Both the position numbers and the translations under genes were made by a program. Below, one piece after another: positions 2,767-37,338 of a stretch of 37,338 nucleotides of DNA. How positions within the stretch are numbered: position 1 is the first letter of the stretch; every line of letters starts with the position of its first letter. The notes beneath the pieces are model-generated. The model made no database searches and was not told where the DNA came from. It worked only from the letters and a program-made list of their open reading frames with translations. The DNA is from a virus. The stretch is taken from the IMG/VR virus record IMGVR_UViG_3300035703_000219, positions 1-37,338 of that record. One strand, given 5' to 3'.

Positions 2767-2916
2767 ATGATGCACTATAAGGGGTATTTTATACACTACG
2801 GAAGCACTGGTGCTGTCTTTGTCACTAATAAACGACACGAAACGATATTAGTGTGCAACAGTGTAAAGTCTGCTAAAATGCGGATTACTAAGTTAGGAAA
2901 GGAAATCTCACTATGA
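2767..2916 (+). CDS. Small protein of unknown function
   Basis: A longer frame opens at ATG 2722, but that ATG has no ribosome binding site. AAGGA (2751-2755) sits 11 bases before ATG 2767, so I choose 2767, giving 49 residues (MMHYKGYFIHYGSTG onward). The fold looks like a small beta hairpin followed by a basic helix. The upstream DNA at 2711-2737 contains overlapping inverted repeats of GCAACAT and ATGTTGC. Its stop overlaps the next ATG by four bases (ATGA). Confidence 0.55.
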   Translation: MMHYKGYFIHYGSTGAVFVTNKRHETILVCNSVKSAKMRITKLGKEISL

Positions 2917-3143
2917 GATGCTTATCATGTGACGGTATACTGTCTGATTATGAATCTTCGAGAAAGTCCATATTTTCTGGTGAATACATACAAATGTGTA
3001 GTATATGCTTCAAAGACATCAAAGGTGATTGTCTAGCCATTGGTAACACTTCTCTAATGGAAGAAGACGAAACTCACACAGAAGACTATGAGGACGATAT
3101 AAACGATCTATCAGATTATGACGATTACTGGGAGGAAAGATGA
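2913..3143 (+). CDS. Small zinc-binding protein with acidic tail
   Basis: The protein is 76 residues. Cysteine pairs CLSC (residues 3-6) and CSIC (29-32) form a probable zinc knuckle of the type common in small phage proteins. Residues 48-76 are extremely acidic (many Asp and Glu). Acidic tails of this kind are often DNA mimics or protein-interaction segments, but no specific role can be assigned. The gene is coupled to both neighbours through four-base ATGA overlaps. Confidence 0.65.
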   Translation: MRCLSCDGILSDYESSRKSIFSGEYIQMCSICFKDIKGDCLAIGNTSLMEEDETHTEDYEDDINDLSDYDDYWEER

Positions 3144-6680: not shown

Positions 6681-6884
6681 ATGTCTGACTTGCCTAAGAA
6701 CAAAAGAGGATCTAACAAAGTGGTCAAAGATGACCAACCAGCAGAGGTTACAAAGGATGAAGGAGTTACAGAGCCTTTCAAGATTGTGAGCATCACTGGT
6801 GATCGGAACGGTAACATCATTGGGCTAGGTAATGATGGTAGGGTGTATGCTCACTTTAACGGTGTGTGGACGAAATACCAATAA
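6681..6884 (+). CDS. Small protein of unknown function
   Basis: The protein is 67 residues, starting after AAGGAAAA. The N-terminal half is charged and disordered-looking (KNKRGSNKVVKDDQPAEV). The C-terminal half resembles a single beta-propeller-like or WG-type repeat (SITGDRNGNIIGLGNDGRVY, then WTKY). Its function is unknown. Confidence 0.6.
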   Translation: MSDLPKNKRGSNKVVKDDQPAEVTKDEGVTEPFKIVSITGDRNGNIIGLGNDGRVYAHFNGVWTKYQ

Positions 6885-6894
6885 AGGATTTAAA

Positions 6895-7356
6895 ATGCCA
6901 TTACGAATTGTTCCTGTTGAATTAAAAGAAGCAAATGAATTTATCGGTGCTTTACATAGACACCATAAACCAGTACAAGGACATCGGTTTAGTATTGGAG
7001 TAAAAAAAGACGGTAAGTTGGTTGGAGTTGCTACCATTGGAAGACCAGTTGCTCGTTTAACCCCCGCAAAGGAAGTGTTAGAAGTTACACGACTTTGTAC
7101 AGACGGAACTAAAAACGCTTGTTCTGCTTTGTATAGCGCTGCTGCTAGAATAGGAAAAGAAATGGGATATCTTCAAATACAGTCTTTTATACTCGATTCT
7201 GAAAATGGTGCTAGTTTAAAAGCAAGTGGATGGGTTTTTGTTAGTATTAGTCCAGGTGGTCAGTGGAAACATACTGATGGGAAACCTAGAAGAACAGACC
7301 AACCAACCTGCCCAAAACATAAGTATGTTAAAATTTTAAATCAAAATATTGAGTGA
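6895..7356 (+). CDS. GNAT-like protein of the XF1762 family
   Basis: The protein is 153 residues from ATG 6895 (AAAGGA at 6883-6888); the longer frame to 6832 is in the previous gene. The N-terminus (PVELKEANEFIGALHRHHKPVQGHRFSIGV) and the later LEVTRLCTDGTKNACSALY, ENGASLKASGW and PGGQWKHTDG match my memory of the XF1762 family. That family is found in phages and bacteria and probably has an acetyltransferase-type fold. The target is unknown; modification of nucleic acid or protein is possible. Hand counts over four lines give about 35% GC, against about 47% in thyX and polymerase on either side, so the gene looks imported. Confidence 0.75.
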   Translation: MPLRIVPVELKEANEFIGALHRHHKPVQGHRFSIGVKKDGKLVGVATIGRPVARLTPAKEVLEVTRLCTDGTKNACSALYSAAARIGKEMGYLQIQSFILDSENGASLKASGWVFVSISPGGQWKHTDGKPRRTDQPTCPKHKYVKILNQNIE

Positions 7357-12351: not shown

Positions 12352-12510
12352 ATGGCATACACTTTGCGAGATATAATTAGTAAACTTAGTCAGTACGATG
12401 AGTTAATGTTGTTGGAAATGTTGAACATATCCGCAGAGGAACTGCTAGAGAGATTCATAGACAAAGTTGAAGATCGTTTCGAACTATTAGAAAAGGAATT
12501 ACATGACTAA
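12352..12510 (+). CDS. Small phage helical protein
   Basis: This 52-residue protein starts after AAAGGA one base past the DUF3310 stop. Its sequence (LRDIISKLSQYDELMLLEML, then ISAEELLERFIDKVED) matches a pattern I have seen in many podoviruses as an unnamed small acidic protein. It is two helices, probably dimeric. It overlaps the RNR start by eight bases, and AAAAGGAA near its end is the RNR ribosome binding site. Confidence 0.65.
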   Translation: MAYTLRDIISKLSQYDELMLLEMLNISAEELLERFIDKVEDRFELLEKELHD

Positions 12511-14404
12511 GATGGACACCTACTCGCAATTCATTAGTAAATCACGTTATAGCCGTTATCTGCCAGAGAAGCGTCGTCGTGAGAACTGGAATGAAACTGT
12601 TGCACGGTATTTTAACTTCATGGAAGATCATCTGCTCAAGAACAACAACTATGCTCTTACGCGTGACCTTCGTAACGAACTAGAACAAGCAGTAGTAAAC
12701 CTGGATGTAATGCCTTCCATGAGGGCTATTATGACCGCTGGTAAGGCTTTGGAGCGTGATAACACAGCAGGGTACAACTGTAGTTATCTGCCTATTGACG
12801 ACCCTAAAGCATTTGATGAGGCTATGTACATCCTGCTCTGTGGAACTGGAGTAGGTTTCTCCGTGGAGCAACGATATGTTAATCAGTTACCTGAAGTCCC
12901 TGAGCAGTTGTTTGATAGTCAGACTACTATCGTTGTTGCCGACTCCAAAGAAGGTTGGGCAAAAGCACTACGACAGTTGGTGGCTCTTCTATATTCTGGT
13001 GAGATTGCAAAATGGGATTTATCCAAGGTACGTCCAGCGGGTCAAAGACTTAAAACATTTGGTGGACGAGCCAGTGGACCAGGACCGCTTGAGGAGTTAT
13101 TTAAATTCACAATATCCAAGTTCAAAGGTGCGGCTGGTCGTCGTCTCTCATCAATCGAGTGCCATGATATTCTCTGCAAGATCGGCGAAGTTGTTGTCGT
13201 TGGTGGTGTTCGCCGTTCAGCAATGATTTCCTTGTCTGACCTGCAAGACGATAAGATGCGTAATGCTAAGTCAGGTTCGTGGTGGGAACAGAATGGTCAA
13301 CGAGCCTTGGCTAACAACTCTGCTACCTATGAGCAGAAGCCTGATACATCACAGTTCCTTCATGAGTGGACTAGTCTGTATGATAGCCACAGTGGTGAGC
13401 GTGGTATCTTCAGTCGTGAAGCATCAGTAAAGCAAGCAGCTAAGAATGGTCGTCGTGATCCTAACTATGAGTTTGGTACAAATCCGTGTAGTGAGATCAT
13501 CCTTCGTCCTTACCAATTCTGTAATCTTTGTGATGTTGTTATTCGTGCTGAAGATACTTTTGAAGATGTTGCAAAAAAGGTTAGAATAGCCACTATCATG
13601 GGTACTTTCCAAGCTACACTGACACATTTTCCTTATTTGCGTAAAGTATGGAAAAAGAATACCGAAGAAGAGCGTTTGCTTGGTGTGTCTTTGACTGGTA
13701 TTTTTGATAATGAATGGATGTCTACTATATGCGACGATACAAAGGAGAAACTTGAAAAACTACGACAATTGTCTGTTGATGTAAATAAAGAGTTTTCTGC
13801 TTTAATTGATATACCTCAATCAGCAGCCATAACTTGTATTAAACCAAGCGGAACAGTTAGCCAGCTTGTTGACTGCGCTTCTGGTATCCACACACGCCAC
13901 AGTCCTTATTATATTCGTCGTATTCGTGGTGATAAAAAAGACCCTCTTACTAAGTTTTTAATAGATGCTGGAATACCAGCAGAGGATTGTGTCATGAAGC
14001 CTGATAATACAACTGTTTTTTCTTTTCCTAAGAAAGCACCGGATGGGGCAAGAACAAGAGAAAATCTAACAGCCATTCAACATCTTGAAACATGGCTGAT
14101 GTATCAAAGACATTTCTCTGAACATAAGCCTTCAGTAACAATTTCTGTCAAAGAAGATGAGTGGATGGATGTTGGTGCGTGGGTTTGGAGGAACTTTAAC
14201 GAAATCAGTGGAATCAGTTTTTTGCCTTATGCTGATAGCAGTTACCGACAAATGCCTTATGAAGATTGTACAAAAGAGCAGTATGAAGAACTACTGTCTA
14301 AGATGCCAAAAGAAATAGATTGGGATTCTTTGGTTGAATACGAAGATAATGTAGAAGGCGCTCAGATGCTCAGTTGCACAGCAGGATCGTGTGAAATAGT
14401 TTAA
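12503..14404 (+). CDS. Adenosylcobalamin-dependent class II ribonucleotide reductase, monomeric type
   Basis: This 633-residue enzyme reduces ribonucleotides, probably triphosphates, to deoxy forms using B12. It fits the Lactobacillus leichmannii RTPR type. The active-site set appears complete: N327, C329 and E331 in NPCSEI (thiyl-radical cysteine C329), the redox pair C93 (YNCSYL) and C340, and the C-terminal shuttle pair C625/C630 five residues apart, as in RTPR. It is shorter than the 739-residue Lactobacillus enzyme. GC drops from about 47% (13021-13200) to about 34% (13681-13860) by hand count, starting close to the active-site codons. Together with ThyX it feeds phage DNA synthesis. The host must provide cobalamin. 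Confidence 0.94.
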   Translation: MTKMDTYSQFISKSRYSRYLPEKRRRENWNETVARYFNFMEDHLLKNNNYALTRDLRNELEQAVVNLDVMPSMRAIMTAGKALERDNTAGYNCSYLPIDDPKAFDEAMYILLCGTGVGFSVEQRYVNQLPEVPEQLFDSQTTIVVADSKEGWAKALRQLVALLYSGEIAKWDLSKVRPAGQRLKTFGGRASGPGPLEELFKFTISKFKGAAGRRLSSIECHDILCKIGEVVVVGGVRRSAMISLSDLQDDKMRNAKSGSWWEQNGQRALANNSATYEQKPDTSQFLHEWTSLYDSHSGERGIFSREASVKQAAKNGRRDPNYEFGTNPCSEIILRPYQFCNLCDVVIRAEDTFEDVAKKVRIATIMGTFQATLTHFPYLRKVWKKNTEEERLLGVSLTGIFDNEWMSTICDDTKEKLEKLRQLSVDVNKEFSALIDIPQSAAITCIKPSGTVSQLVDCASGIHTRHSPYYIRRIRGDKKDPLTKFLIDAGIPAEDCVMKPDNTTVFSFPKKAPDGARTRENLTAIQHLETWLMYQRHFSEHKPSVTISVKEDEWMDVGAWVWRNFNEISGISFLPYADSSYRQMPYEDCTKEQYEELLSKMPKEIDWDSLVEYEDNVEGAQMLSCTAGSCEIV

Positions 14405-14413
14405 AAAAAAACA

Positions 14414-14442
14414 TTGACATCCTTAATTGAATCGTGTATAAT
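14414..14442 (+). promoter_or_regulatory. Perfect-consensus sigma70 promoter for the HNH gene
   Basis: -35 TTGACA (14414-14419), exactly 17 bp, then -10 TATAAT (14437-14442). Both boxes match consensus at all six positions. It lies directly after the RNR stop codon. The expected transcription start is about 14449, so the RNA begins in the loop of the hairpin at 14415-14474 and lacks its left arm. Confidence 0.85.
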
Positions 14443-14474
14443 TCAAATGTTACATAAATCAATTGAGGATGTCA
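14415..14474 (+). promoter_or_regulatory. Inverted repeat that masks the HNH ribosome binding site
   Basis: 14415-14430 pairs with 14459-14474: 16 consecutive pairs, of which one is a U-G wobble (14424 with 14465), around a 28-base loop. The right arm contains the GAGG ribosome binding site (14465-14468) and the A of the ATG. RNA that reads through from the RNR gene would fold and hide the start. RNA from the promoter in the loop would not. Confidence 0.8.
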
Positions 14475-14926
14475 TGTATAAAAACAGACAAGGATATAAA
14501 GTAAGCGATACTCATCGGGAGTGTACTAAATGCGGCTCTATTTTTGAAATTACTAGTGCAATGACTTTGTGTAAAATTTGTAATAGTAATAGGGTTAAGA
14601 GCCTAACTCCAGAATGGAAAATGCATCAGAGAGCAAAACAAAGAAGCAAGGAAAACGGAAGGGAGTTTAATATCCTTGTTTCTGATATTGTTATCCCAGA
14701 TAAGTGTCCAATACTTGGTATAGAGTTAAATATGAATTCTGGTAAATCAGGAGCGTACAGAAACTCACCGTCTTTAGATAGAATAGATAATTCAAAAGGG
14801 TATATAGAAGATAACATCCAAGTAATTAGCCAACTCGCTAATGCAATGAAGTGCCATGCCTCAAATGAGGAGTTACACGCGTTTGCTAAGTGGGTTATAA
14901 ACAATGTACCAAAGAAACAGATTTGA
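14474..14926 (+). CDS. HNH endonuclease, probable free-standing homing enzyme
   Basis: The protein is 150 residues from ATG 14474 (GAGG five bases upstream). An in-frame ATG at 14447 lies at the predicted transcript start and has no ribosome binding site. A four-cysteine zinc ribbon (C17, C20, C33, C36) precedes the nuclease core, whose PSLDRIDNSKGYIEDNIQVIS and ANAMK segments are typical of small phage HNH enzymes. It probably nicks or cuts DNA in related phages so that its own gene is copied in. Location beside the RNR gene is usual for such elements. About 35% GC, like the 3' half of the RNR gene and unlike the genes around them. Confidence 0.88.
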   Translation: MYKNRQGYKVSDTHRECTKCGSIFEITSAMTLCKICNSNRVKSLTPEWKMHQRAKQRSKENGREFNILVSDIVIPDKCPILGIELNMNSGKSGAYRNSPSLDRIDNSKGYIEDNIQVISQLANAMKCHASNEELHAFAKWVINNVPKKQI

Positions 14927-14967
14927 TTGAGTAAAATCACTCACTATATTGAGTAAAGGGAGGTACT

Positions 14968-15102
14968 ATGAGTTTATCAATGATCATCATCACCGGTATT
15001 ATGTTTGGTGTAGAGTATTCAGAGATGGAGGATGAAGAAGGTGTGTTCAACAATGTCATCATCGACATTGGCTTTCTTAGGTTTGTGGTACAATGGGAAT
15101 AG
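14968..15102 (+). CDS. Small protein at the end of the rightward arm
   Basis: The 44-residue frame has a near-perfect ribosome binding site (AGGGAGGT) five bases before ATG 14968. A hydrophobic N-terminus (SLSMIIITGIMFGVEY) is followed by an acidic turn and a hydrophobic strand (VIIDIGFLRFVVQW). Its form resembles small unnamed phage proteins that sit between replication and late genes. The function is unknown. It is the last gene before the shared terminator. Confidence 0.6.
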   Translation: MSLSMIIITGIMFGVEYSEMEDEEGVFNNVIIDIGFLRFVVQWE

Positions 15103-15123: not shown

Positions 15124-15154
15124 TAAAAAGCCCCAATTAAGGGGCTTCTTTTTT
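15124..15154. terminator. Bidirectional intrinsic terminator between converging arms
   Basis: Stem aagcccc (15128-15134) pairs with ggggctt (15141-15147) around a six-base loop. On the plus strand it is followed by a run of six T (15149-15154). On the minus strand the complement of aattaaaa supplies a T-rich tail. It ends the rightward arm after 15102 and the leftward arm just past the endolysin stop. Confidence 0.9.
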
Positions 15155-27460: not shown

Positions 27461-29542
27461 CTATTGATCAGGGAATTCTTTAGTAGGCGCAGTAAAGTTA
27501 GCGGTGTATCTCGCCACGCCCTTGGTAATACGAAGATCGTCGATGTAGCCGTTGAATGGAAAATAAAGGCCAGGAGCGCCACCGGCGCTATAGTTGGTAA
27601 TTCCAACAAGGGTTAATGGCTGCGATTTATACGTTGACAGACTAACAGTTCCGCTTGCTGATCCGTTAATATAAAACGTCAAGGTTCCGCTGCTTCTTAC
27701 CCAGGCAACATGATTCCATGTTTGCCCAGATATAGTTGATGTTGCGTCATCTGATGTGGCAGCAATACCACCATTTAAGACTGCCGAGGAAAAAACCGCA
27801 TAAACAGTTCCTGACTTTTGAACCGCAAAAACTGCTATTTCTGTTGTTGATGCGTATTTTTGTATTCTTGGCGTGTATGTCCCTGCATCGGTCATATACA
27901 ACCAAGCCTCTACCGTAAAATCTTCACCAACATTAAAGTTAATCGCATCTGGGAATTTCAAATAATCCCCAGTCCCATCAAACTTCATCGAGCCGGTGCC
28001 GAACTTCTTGACGCTGGTATCTATCTGAGCATTGCCGACTGTCTCTAGGTTGTTCTTGGCGGTGCTGTCTAAGATGCCAGCGTTGGTGAAGTTGCAGAGG
28101 AGGCTGGTGTTGGTGATGGCTGTGAGGGGTGCTGTTGGTCCACCGGCGGGAGGCGTTACCGCTGTGCCTTTGACAATACGAACATTTGATAAATACCCTG
28201 TTATTGGTAATTGAGATGTTCCAGTAGTTGTAGTACCAGTAGCGCCAACAAACAAATTGTTTCCATTATTTACTGTTCCAGACAGTGTTCCTGTTGCCCT
28301 AGAAACACCATTTACATAAACAGTAACAGTGGTTGATGACCTTACTACAGCAATATGATTCCATGAGTTTGGAACCCAAACACTACCAGCAGTAGTGGCA
28401 ACAGCTGTGTTTCCAACATAGAAAACAACATCACCTGCGTTTGTAACAGAAGTACCAATACCCCATCCATTTGTAGATGATATATAGTTACCAATAAAAT
28501 CCTGCCTAGAAGAACTTGATGTTAAATAAATCCATGCTTCAATAGTAAAATTAGCATCAAAAGAAAAAGCAGCGTTGTTAGCTAGGCTTAAGGTATCACT
28601 AGTCCCATCAAAATACCCACTCCCGCCATTAGTGCTTGCAGAGTAAGCAGCAGAGGGTGCGAAAGGACTGAAGGGGGTTACACGCACATCACCGTTGCGA
28701 GTGATAGCAAATGCGTTTGTGCTGTTGTCTACAAATCGATTGGATTGGCAGGTGAGTAGGGAAGTGTTGGTGATGTTGGTGAGGGGTGTGGTTGGCGGGG
28801 TAAAAATCGTCGCCCCTACAGTTGTACTTGAAGTTGAATAAGCAGAAACAACAGAACCTTTTACTAATCTTAGGTTAGATATGTACCCAAAAAACGGATT
28901 GACGAAAGTGCCACTTGTATAACCAAGAATGCCGATAGTCAATACCTGTGCGTTGTCGCTTAGACTTATTGAACTTGTTGCGGTTGCTTCTAAAACACCA
29001 TTCAAAAACAAACGAAATGTAGTTCCCGATCTAGTTACCGCAACGTGATGCCAGGTATTTGAAGCAACCGTTGTTGGCCCAGAGACATCTATATCCCAAG
29101 TGCTTCCAGAAGAAAACAGCATTCCAAGTTTATTAGTATTTCTTATTTGAACAGCAAAAGCGCCTTCCCCGCCAGCAGTATCTCTATCACTTTTTGCGAC
29201 AATCAATCTGTTTGTTGAATCTGCGGTTGCGTACACCCAAGATTCAATCGTGAAATCGCCACTACCAAATTCAAAAGCAGCATTATCCGCAAGCGTCAGG
29301 TAATCACCCGTACCATCAAAATAATTACTCCACTCCCCCGCACCTACACTAAATGGGCTAAACGTGCCTTGGGTGGTGTTGCCATTGCGGGTAATGGTGA
29401 AGTTGTTGGTAGAGGAGTCTAGGAAAGTGTTGTTCTGTGCGCCGTTGGTTCCATCGCCGTGGAGGAGTAGGACGGTTTGCTTGAAGTTGGGGTCAGTCTC
29501 TGCTGCCCCTCCTCTAGCCAATGCTTTTAATACATTACTCAT
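27461..29542 (-). CDS. Triple LamG/concanavalin A-like fibre protein
   Basis: This 693-residue protein contains three related jelly-roll lectin-like domains, at about 20-240, 250-460 and 470-690. Each has the same elements: a DGTGDYL or DGTSDTL strand, FTIE.WVY or FTVEAWLY, W.H.A..RS, and a GYI.NLR.VKG or GYIDDLRITKG C-terminal strand. Linkers repeat PLT.ITNTSLL. Such proteins bind sugars on host surfaces. The DNA encoding the linkers is GC-rich, while the domains are AT-rich. Tandem, divergent lectin domains suggest domain swapping. It starts at an overlap with the collagen-like gene. Confidence 0.88.
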   Translation of the reverse strand: MSNVLKALARGGAAETDPNFKQTVLLLHGDGTNGAQNNTFLDSSTNNFTITRNGNTTQGTFSPFSVGAGEWSNYFDGTGDYLTLADNAAFEFGSGDFTIESWVYATADSTNRLIVAKSDRDTAGGEGAFAVQIRNTNKLGMLFSSGSTWDIDVSGPTTVASNTWHHVAVTRSGTTFRLFLNGVLEATATSSISLSDNAQVLTIGILGYTSGTFVNPFFGYISNLRLVKGSVVSAYSTSSTTVGATIFTPPTTPLTNITNTSLLTCQSNRFVDNSTNAFAITRNGDVRVTPFSPFAPSAAYSASTNGGSGYFDGTSDTLSLANNAAFSFDANFTIEAWIYLTSSSSRQDFIGNYISSTNGWGIGTSVTNAGDVVFYVGNTAVATTAGSVWVPNSWNHIAVVRSSTTVTVYVNGVSRATGTLSGTVNNGNNLFVGATGTTTTGTSQLPITGYLSNVRIVKGTAVTPPAGGPTAPLTAITNTSLLCNFTNAGILDSTAKNNLETVGNAQIDTSVKKFGTGSMKFDGTGDYLKFPDAINFNVGEDFTVEAWLYMTDAGTYTPRIQKYASTTEIAVFAVQKSGTVYAVFSSAVLNGGIAATSDDATSTISGQTWNHVAWVRSSGTLTFYINGSASGTVSLSTYKSQPLTLVGITNYSAGGAPGLYFPFNGYIDDLRITKGVARYTANFTAPTKEFPDQ

Positions 29543-30561
29543 TATGGCTTACCAACTTCAGTTGCGTAGATAGTGGTGCTAACTTTCCATAACAGAATCC
29601 AAGTATAGCCAGTGGTAACTAATGTTGGTGCTGAACCAGTGCCACCTACCTTAACCCAAGTAGGATTAACAGTAGACCAAGTAATAGTATATGCAGTACC
29701 ATCATCAATACCAAGCAACACTATCTGACCTGCTTCAAAGTTAGTCGCTGCTGGTGTACGGTTAGCACCTAGAGTTACAATCTGAATTGAACCATTAGCA
29801 GGATCAATCTCAAATGCAGCACCGTCAGTGATGGTATGAACAGTATCTTTTAGTTCTTTGAAGGTTTGCTGTGCTGTGAATGATTGTGCTACATCTAGTT
29901 TAGCAGTGTCAACATCGTACGCTTGAACAGTAACACCAATAGCAGCAGGAGCAAGATAATCAGTGCCAGCAGTAGCAGTTGTAATAGCACTAGATCCGTT
30001 ACCTTTCAACAACGCACCAGCAGTAAACGAAGCAGCGCCAGTACCACCATAAGGCACAGTAATCTCTGTACCTTTCCACACACCAGTGGTTACTTCACCA
30101 CTATCGTTCACAATTAGTGAACTATTTTGAATTATTTTACCAGTGGTGCTATCAAACCTAGCAACCGCATTATCAGTGGATGACGCTGGTCCTAAAACAT
30201 CGCCAGTACCGCTACCACTAGCCCCAGTAGGACCGGTAGGGCCAGCAACAGTAGAAGCAGCCCCTGTTGGTCCTGTAGGGCCGGTCGGTCCTGTTGGTCC
30301 TGCTACATTAGAAGCAGCGCCAGTAGGTCCAGTAGGACCAGTAGAACCAGTAGCGCCTGTTGTTCCAGTAGCGCCAGTAGAGCCTGTGGGACCGGTTGGG
30401 CCTATAGCCCCTGTTGGGCCTGTTGGTCCAGGAGGACCGCCGCTAGGACCAGTAGCACCAGTTGGGCCTGTTGGACCTGATCCAGTAGGGCCAGTAGGTC
30501 CGTTTGGGCCTGTTGGACCTGAAGGTACACCATAAATTGTTTCGCCGCGAAATATCGACAT
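29542..30561 (-). CDS. Collagen-like tail fibre
   Basis: The protein is 339 residues. From about 15 to 118 it is built of Gly-X-Y triplets, mostly GPTGPTG and GATGATG, a phage collagen helix that forms a rigid trimeric rod. The C-terminal 220 residues are non-repetitive and beta-rich (GTDYLAPAA, then [20 protein letters not shown]), a common tip fold in phage fibres. The N-terminus ([15 protein letters not shown]) may attach to the tail or to a decoration protein. It follows a terminator (30607-30630), so its expression may differ from that of the capsid. Confidence 0.9.
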
Positions 30562-37211: not shown

Positions 37212-37338
37212 TTTTTTTTTATCTTGTTGTGCTATCCAATATTATAAGGTGTTTATTGTAGCAGATTTCGAGACAAAAGTCAATGTTTATTTTTACTTTG
37301 TTGTAAAAAAGTTACATAACATCGTCCTTCGCAATGCT
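37212..37338. repeat. Right copy of the 127-bp terminal overlap
   Basis: Identical to 1-127. It contains a second copy of the leftward promoter (-10 at 37255-37260, -35 at 37278-37283). Preceded by a T run (37211-37220). Confidence 0.95.

Follow-up and report, generated by a model that had tools for sequence, protein, structure and literature searches.

A leader with an internal promoter, a hairpin over the ribosome binding site and a probable operator precedes a putative free-standing homing endonuclease gene behind a phage ribonucleotide reductase gene

The window, meaning the whole 37,338-nucleotide stretch analysed (IMG/VR virus record IMGVR_UViG_3300035703_000219), carries an exact 127-nt direct terminal repeat (1-127 and 37212-37338) and is for that reason taken to be a complete genome with about 37.2 kb of unique sequence. 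Its plus strand encodes an uninterrupted class II (nrdJ-type) ribonucleotide reductase (RNR) (12503-14404; PHROG 367, E = 2e-187; PF21995, B12-dependent RNR insertion domain) that ends with the stop codon TAA (14402-14404). Downstream on the same strand are an HNH endonuclease gene of 150 aa (14474-14926), a small gene of 44 aa (14968-15102) and an intrinsic-terminator-like hairpin (15128-15147) that closes the rightward operon. Because about 14-15 relatives (tblastn; about 14 at E < 0.01), which lack the HNH gene, have the small gene directly 3' of RNR, we interpret the HNH cassette (about 14405-14960) as an insertion with the small gene as its right flank. Among the proteins scanned, a subset of the open reading frames, there was no phage RNA polymerase or sigma factor, as the earlier note on this DNA had also observed. 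Elsewhere the genome encodes a Mom-like DNA modification protein (6832-7356; phrog_1384, E = 5e-41) and, near the tail and virion genes, a minus-strand gene (29542-30561) with a nine-nucleotide repeat array (30217-30528) coding for GPxGPx collagen-like repeats.

The HNH protein matches the PHROG families phrog_3322 (endonuclease, E = 2e-33) and phrog_1035 (endonuclease VII, E = 3e-18). The sole significant fold match of its AlphaFold model (pLDDT 92) is PacI (PDB 3ldy; E = 4e-4, probability 1.00, 15% identity, TM 0.43), and this confident model together with the phrog_3322 match assigns the protein to the HNH, or beta-beta-alpha-metal, fold. Pfam support for HNH is weak (HNH_5, E = 0.12, one of eight members), an NCBIfam search returned weak zinc-ribbon matches only, a sequence search of solved structures gave no match, and a genome-collection scan with A3 found no relatives. 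Most of the nearest HNH relatives, 65-83% identical, are carried by group I introns, which interrupt RNR at window codon 340|341. Group I introns of Rfam family RF00028 stand directly upstream of the HNH gene in loci L082, L084, L085, L092, L093, L095, L096, L098-L101 and others, and in most intron-bearing relatives the insertion point corresponds to 340|341 of the window RNR. The family has relatives in introns at one conserved site (340|341), and the window HNH gene lies beside RNR. The RNR gene is the probable homing target of the HNH family and the HNH product probably a free-standing homing endonuclease. The RNR genes of L099 and L100 have a second group I intron beside the HNH-bearing one.

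No RF00028 match to a group I intron core was found in the window, where RNR is uninterrupted, so the HNH gene is not an intron ORF there. Other free-standing relatives are found right behind RNR-type genes (L097, L102, L110, L122, L189, L192 and Streptomyces phages) or, at L123, before one. Leader length was counted from where the Rfam intron match ends up to the start of HNH, and called long at 50 nt or more and short at 40 nt or less; L094, a cut contig that has no Rfam match, was assigned to the long class because of its leader. The tree places the window with the intron-encoded genes of L092-L094 (support 92/94, below the strict threshold), all long-leader loci adjoining or inside a split RNR, which makes descent from an intron-encoded gene the simplest reading, short of proof. 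The cassette would then derive from HNH genes of group I introns at RNR codon 340 and would have become free-standing behind an uninterrupted RNR with its leader kept. Such a probable origin inside RNR formed no part of the earlier note's reading.

The gap between RNR and HNH begins with an A-tract (14403-14411) at -46 to -38 relative to the predicted transcription start, which we take to be the position of a proximal UP element. The perfect sigma70 promoter that had been described just after the RNR stop codon is present to the base, with TTGACA (14414-14419) and TATAAT (14437-14442) separated by 17 bp and a start predicted from the spacing at a G, 14449. This is the sole exact 12/12, 17-bp-spaced site in the window, with 0.01 expected in shuffles. 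An inverted repeat had likewise been reported as 16 bp, and it lies at 14415-14430 and 14459-14474 as claimed, except that one of the 16 pairs is G-U. The 15 Watson-Crick pairs are the most of any stem genome-wide (runner-up 13); when G-U pairs were allowed, 12 shuffled genomes had longest unbroken stems of 13-16. As the note had it, the right arm includes the Shine-Dalgarno sequence (SD) GAGG (14465-14468) and the A of the ATG (14474). The -35 box is in the left arm by its bases 2-6, and the -10 box and predicted start are in the loop, although that loop is not a plain one: pairing extends into it (29-nt arms with 79% complementarity). When the proposed fold of 14402-14500 was computed, the structure was strong (-28.2 kcal/mol, z -7.4), and none of 200 shuffles was as good.

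The same DNA could also act on the opposite strand, where the A-tract reads as nine T directly after the stem (within 14403-14480; minus-strand fold -22.2 kcal/mol, z -4.3). An intrinsic terminator here could keep leftward transcription of the structural operon out of the rightward operon, and the two operons do converge at 15.1 kb. However, 15128-15147 already holds a terminator, the stem is rich in A and T and its loop is 28 nt long, and other long leaders have no such A-tract before the stem. Termination would also leave the placement over the SD and start codon unexplained, and we consider it quite improbable as the function of the hairpin.

Computed accessibility instead follows the position of the RNA 5' end. 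For RNAs starting from 14300 to 14421 the SD has an unpaired probability of 0.001-0.003, and for starts from 14424 on it is 0.41-0.80, reaching 0.80 at 14449. The HNH start region ranks lowest in accessibility among 46 genes of the phage (0.02; next 0.27, median 0.48). Translational coupling from RNR termination was considered and rejected; when everything up to 14417 was masked to mimic a ribosome on the RNR stop codon, the SD was still closed (0.001). The earlier note had proposed that read-through RNA folds and blocks translation, and that RNA from the gene's own promoter lacks the left arm and is open. The computation supports both predictions: the SD and start codon are predicted to be sequestered in upstream-initiated RNA (SD 0.001), the predicted start lies downstream of the left arm, and the shorter RNA is predicted to be open (SD 0.80). 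The same pair of values supports its view of a switch between operon read-through and independent expression. A consensus sigma70 promoter alone gives no late timing, so the switch would separate these two sources of RNA and not early from late expression.

A long stem right after the RNR stop codon could alternatively be an RNase III site or a 3'-end stabilizer of the RNR mRNA. The equivalent leader of relatives is inside introns and not behind RNR, however, and the comparison that the note had suggested, with the same gap in HNH-less relatives, found no such stem after RNR; this role is very improbable.

Leaders of relatives also contain promoters and stems. Promoters of the TTGACA-like/TATAAT-like type with 17-bp spacing were found in long leaders of L082 and L094 (12/12), L185 (11/12), and L092, L093, L096 and L184 (10/12), with a weaker one in L179, whereas short leaders generally had no 17-bp-spaced pair. 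Stems were assessed by pairing of -80 to -25 with -20 to +12 against shuffles, using segments picked after a first look. Among long leaders the pairing exceeded that of shuffles (15 loci, the window not among them; Fisher p = 1.4e-6), which it did not in the short-leader controls (14 loci; p = 0.998), the combined p-values being too small because the relatives are not independent; a Mann-Whitney test gave p = 2e-5. Column covariation was unusable, since the MAFFT leader alignment fits inner half-sites and not the outer arms, and an arm-swap test was used alongside the shuffles. Pairing was better with the arm of the same locus than with an arm taken from another locus (permutation p < 5e-5, window left out). 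Examples of own arms are those of L093 (TTGACTAAC/GTTAGTCA), L179 (GACTCCTA/TAGGAGTT), L184 (CCAGCAA/TTGCTGG) and L082 (TCTTGTTCATG/CATGAATAAGA). The pairing that the earlier note expected to persist in homologues is kept by both tests, with arms that differ in sequence and are complementary within each locus.

A clean computed accessibility switch occurs only in the window and in L179, where SD unpaired probability goes from 0.00 to 0.65. The computed change is small or absent in L092, L093, L094, L096, L098 and L184, the start codon of L082 is paired in both RNAs, and the long leaders L103, L115, L111 and L196 have no clear promoter or stem. A parallel case of its own is seen in five Streptomyces phages (L088, L086, L197-L199), which carry HNH right after RNR, with a start-codon hairpin built from several different stems and a -10-like box 6 nt before the ATG, from which a leaderless HNH RNA is predicted. 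In the same RNR-HNH gap (L088:2250-2340; L086, L197-L199) a second conserved hairpin immediately precedes the -10 box. L102 has a free-standing HNH gene behind a different class II-like RNR, and there (2880-3000) an intrinsic-terminator-like hairpin with the -10 box in its loop is nested in a 10-bp stem covering the ribosome binding site (RBS).

Spanning the promoter/start region of the relatives' leaders there are also common inverted half-sites, TTATGTAA-N10(11)-TTACATAA, and these match a site in RNR. A 12-bp matrix built from ten relatives' leaders, window excluded, was run over about 74,400 positions of the window genome. Its top match was the RNR site at 13515-13526, AATTCTGT|AATC, which is the core of the site of intron insertion and probably of homing (junction 13522|13523), and its third-ranked match was the HNH leader at 14448. 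The leader match is an operator-like half-site, TGTTACATAAAT (14448-14459, plus strand), which covers the predicted transcription start and aligns with TTACATAA of the relatives' leaders; the window keeps this one clear operator half, and the left half is absent. In 53 intronless RNR genes the top match of the matrix fell on the junction in 79%, versus 0.9% for column-permuted matrices, and 0 of 2000 permuted matrices reached 79%. An operator test with an 18-nt homing consensus was weak at most loci, and the matrix test was decisive. An alternative in which these are guide sequences of the intron is less probable, since the likely guide (GCAGAA, close to the 5' end of the intron) lies elsewhere. 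The motif TTACATAA has 7 copies in the window (2.1 expected; 0 of 100 shuffles had as many), including 99-110, 344-373 and 14450-14457, with copies both within the terminal repeat and within the left leader region.

The simplest reading of the motif match is that the RNR site and the leader half-site both serve as cores recognized by the HNH protein, in the manner of the I-TevI operator (PMC2988022). Since the half-site over the transcription start resembles the probable RNR target, repression of the promoter by the enzyme itself is probable, as for I-TevI. The earlier note contained no such element; the leader copy of a probable recognition core suggests autorepression. PacI acts as a dimer on a palindrome, and a PacI-like fold, as modelled, would fit the inverted half-sites and the target in L093, which is the palindrome TTCTGTAA-TC-TTACAGAA. 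Only the first half is kept in the window RNR, where 13515-13540 reads AATTCTGT|AATC and then AATCTTTGTGATGT (NLCDVV), versus AATCTTACAGAAGT (NLTEVV) in L093; L002, which has no HNH gene, reads like the window at the insertion site. Half-sites stand 2 bp apart in the L093 RNR target and 10-11 bp apart in the leaders, and this spacing might set binding without cutting. The free-standing copy would be self-immune because the window RNR has lost the second half-site (AATCTTTGTGAT). A PacI-like HNH family outside T4 with the full three-layer control of I-TevI, cleavage withheld by spacing and a self-immune free-standing member is a further reading, to which we give somewhat less than even weight.

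Conserved half-sites with a fixed 10-11 bp spacing over relatives' promoters, matching the RNR target, might mean that the dyad serves chiefly as the DNA operator of a repressor, be it the HNH protein or a different one, with the RNA hairpin arising as a side effect of symmetric sites. The half-sites nevertheless fall in the inner part, outside the 16-bp outer arms; those arms vary in sequence yet remain complementary within each locus, and in the clearest cases the right arm lies on the SD or start codon. We judge it unlikely that the dyad is chiefly an operator, though this is the strongest of the competing explanations. The loss of the left operator half, together with the lack of an intron in the window, could instead indicate that the leader is a functionless relic of an intron ancestor. 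The rationale known from T4, protection of splicing, does not apply where there is no intron, and the hairpin could for that reason be a relic even though it is the strongest of the set. A perfect-consensus promoter with an A-tract and the longest stem of the family are unlike decay, and we give the relic very little credence.

We therefore favour, as the probable explanation of the whole, a leader (14403-14474) that controls a homing-endonuclease cassette of intron origin by a read-through block, its own promoter and probable autorepression. In read-through mRNA from the RNR operon both arms would be present and the 16-bp stem would bury the SD and start codon, so that little endonuclease is proposed to come from it. 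RNA from the sigma70-type promoter of the cassette would start at about 14449 with the left arm absent and be translatable. The hairpin itself was probably inherited from the intron-borne ancestor, given the probable origin of the gene in group I introns of RNR. In the open-access papers searched we found no report of this HNH leader, of a group I intron at the nrdJ 340|341 site, or of such an operator in the HNH family. Short-leader intron, long-leader intron and free-standing copies form a natural series for asking what the hairpin does when there is no intron to protect, and sequence comparison gives access to the target and operator of an enzyme family that is otherwise uncharacterized.

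In the textbook case, the homing endonucleases of T4, read-through is blocked by an RBS hairpin, coupled with an internal promoter and an operator for autorepression. That an HNH family unrelated to them has the same layers, in phages apparently dependent on host polymerase, suggests a general way to carry a toxic nuclease in an essential operon. The results support T4 homing-gene logic outside T4, with an internal promoter of host type, an RBS hairpin, probably an operator, and a free-standing derivative. The hairpin and promoter logic is shared by T4 I-TevI, I-TevII, I-TevIII and segB and by Aeh1 mobE, and I-TevI also has an operator (PMC2988022). As in I-TevI (td intron), I-TevII and I-TevIII, the endonuclease gene lies within a longer transcript with an internal promoter, and its RBS is predicted to be hidden by RNA structure only in upstream-initiated RNA; the homing-site-like operator over the promoter of I-TevI (PMC2988022) may have a counterpart in the half-site of the window leader. 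The precedent cited in the earlier note was well chosen, extending to mobE, an HNH gene inside the RNR gene nrdA of Aeh1 with an RBS-sequestering hairpin (PMC2988022). Both mobE and the window gene are HNH genes beside or within an RNR gene and have an RBS hairpin, but mobE, in a T4-like phage, interrupts its host gene with no intron involved, and the window HNH gene stands behind an intact RNR. T4 genes e, soc and 49 have an RBS hairpin in early read-through RNA that is open in late-promoter RNA (PMC3014915); they are not homing genes and use late promoters, and the product of gene 49, endonuclease VII, is remotely related to the window HNH protein by PHROG. PacI resembles the predicted HNH structure in fold, and it is a restriction enzyme, not a homing enzyme. 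Unlike the T4 I-Tev genes, which use phage middle or late promoters, the window has a perfect host sigma70 consensus, a PacI-like HNH family, a class II RNR, a non-T4 phage and a free-standing copy. Given this promoter and the lack of a polymerase or sigma factor among the scanned proteins, the leader works like the T4 type and is not filed as a member of it. The T4 hairpin protects splicing and delays expression; the window copy has no intron left and a host-type promoter, and its benefit may be to limit the dose of the nuclease.
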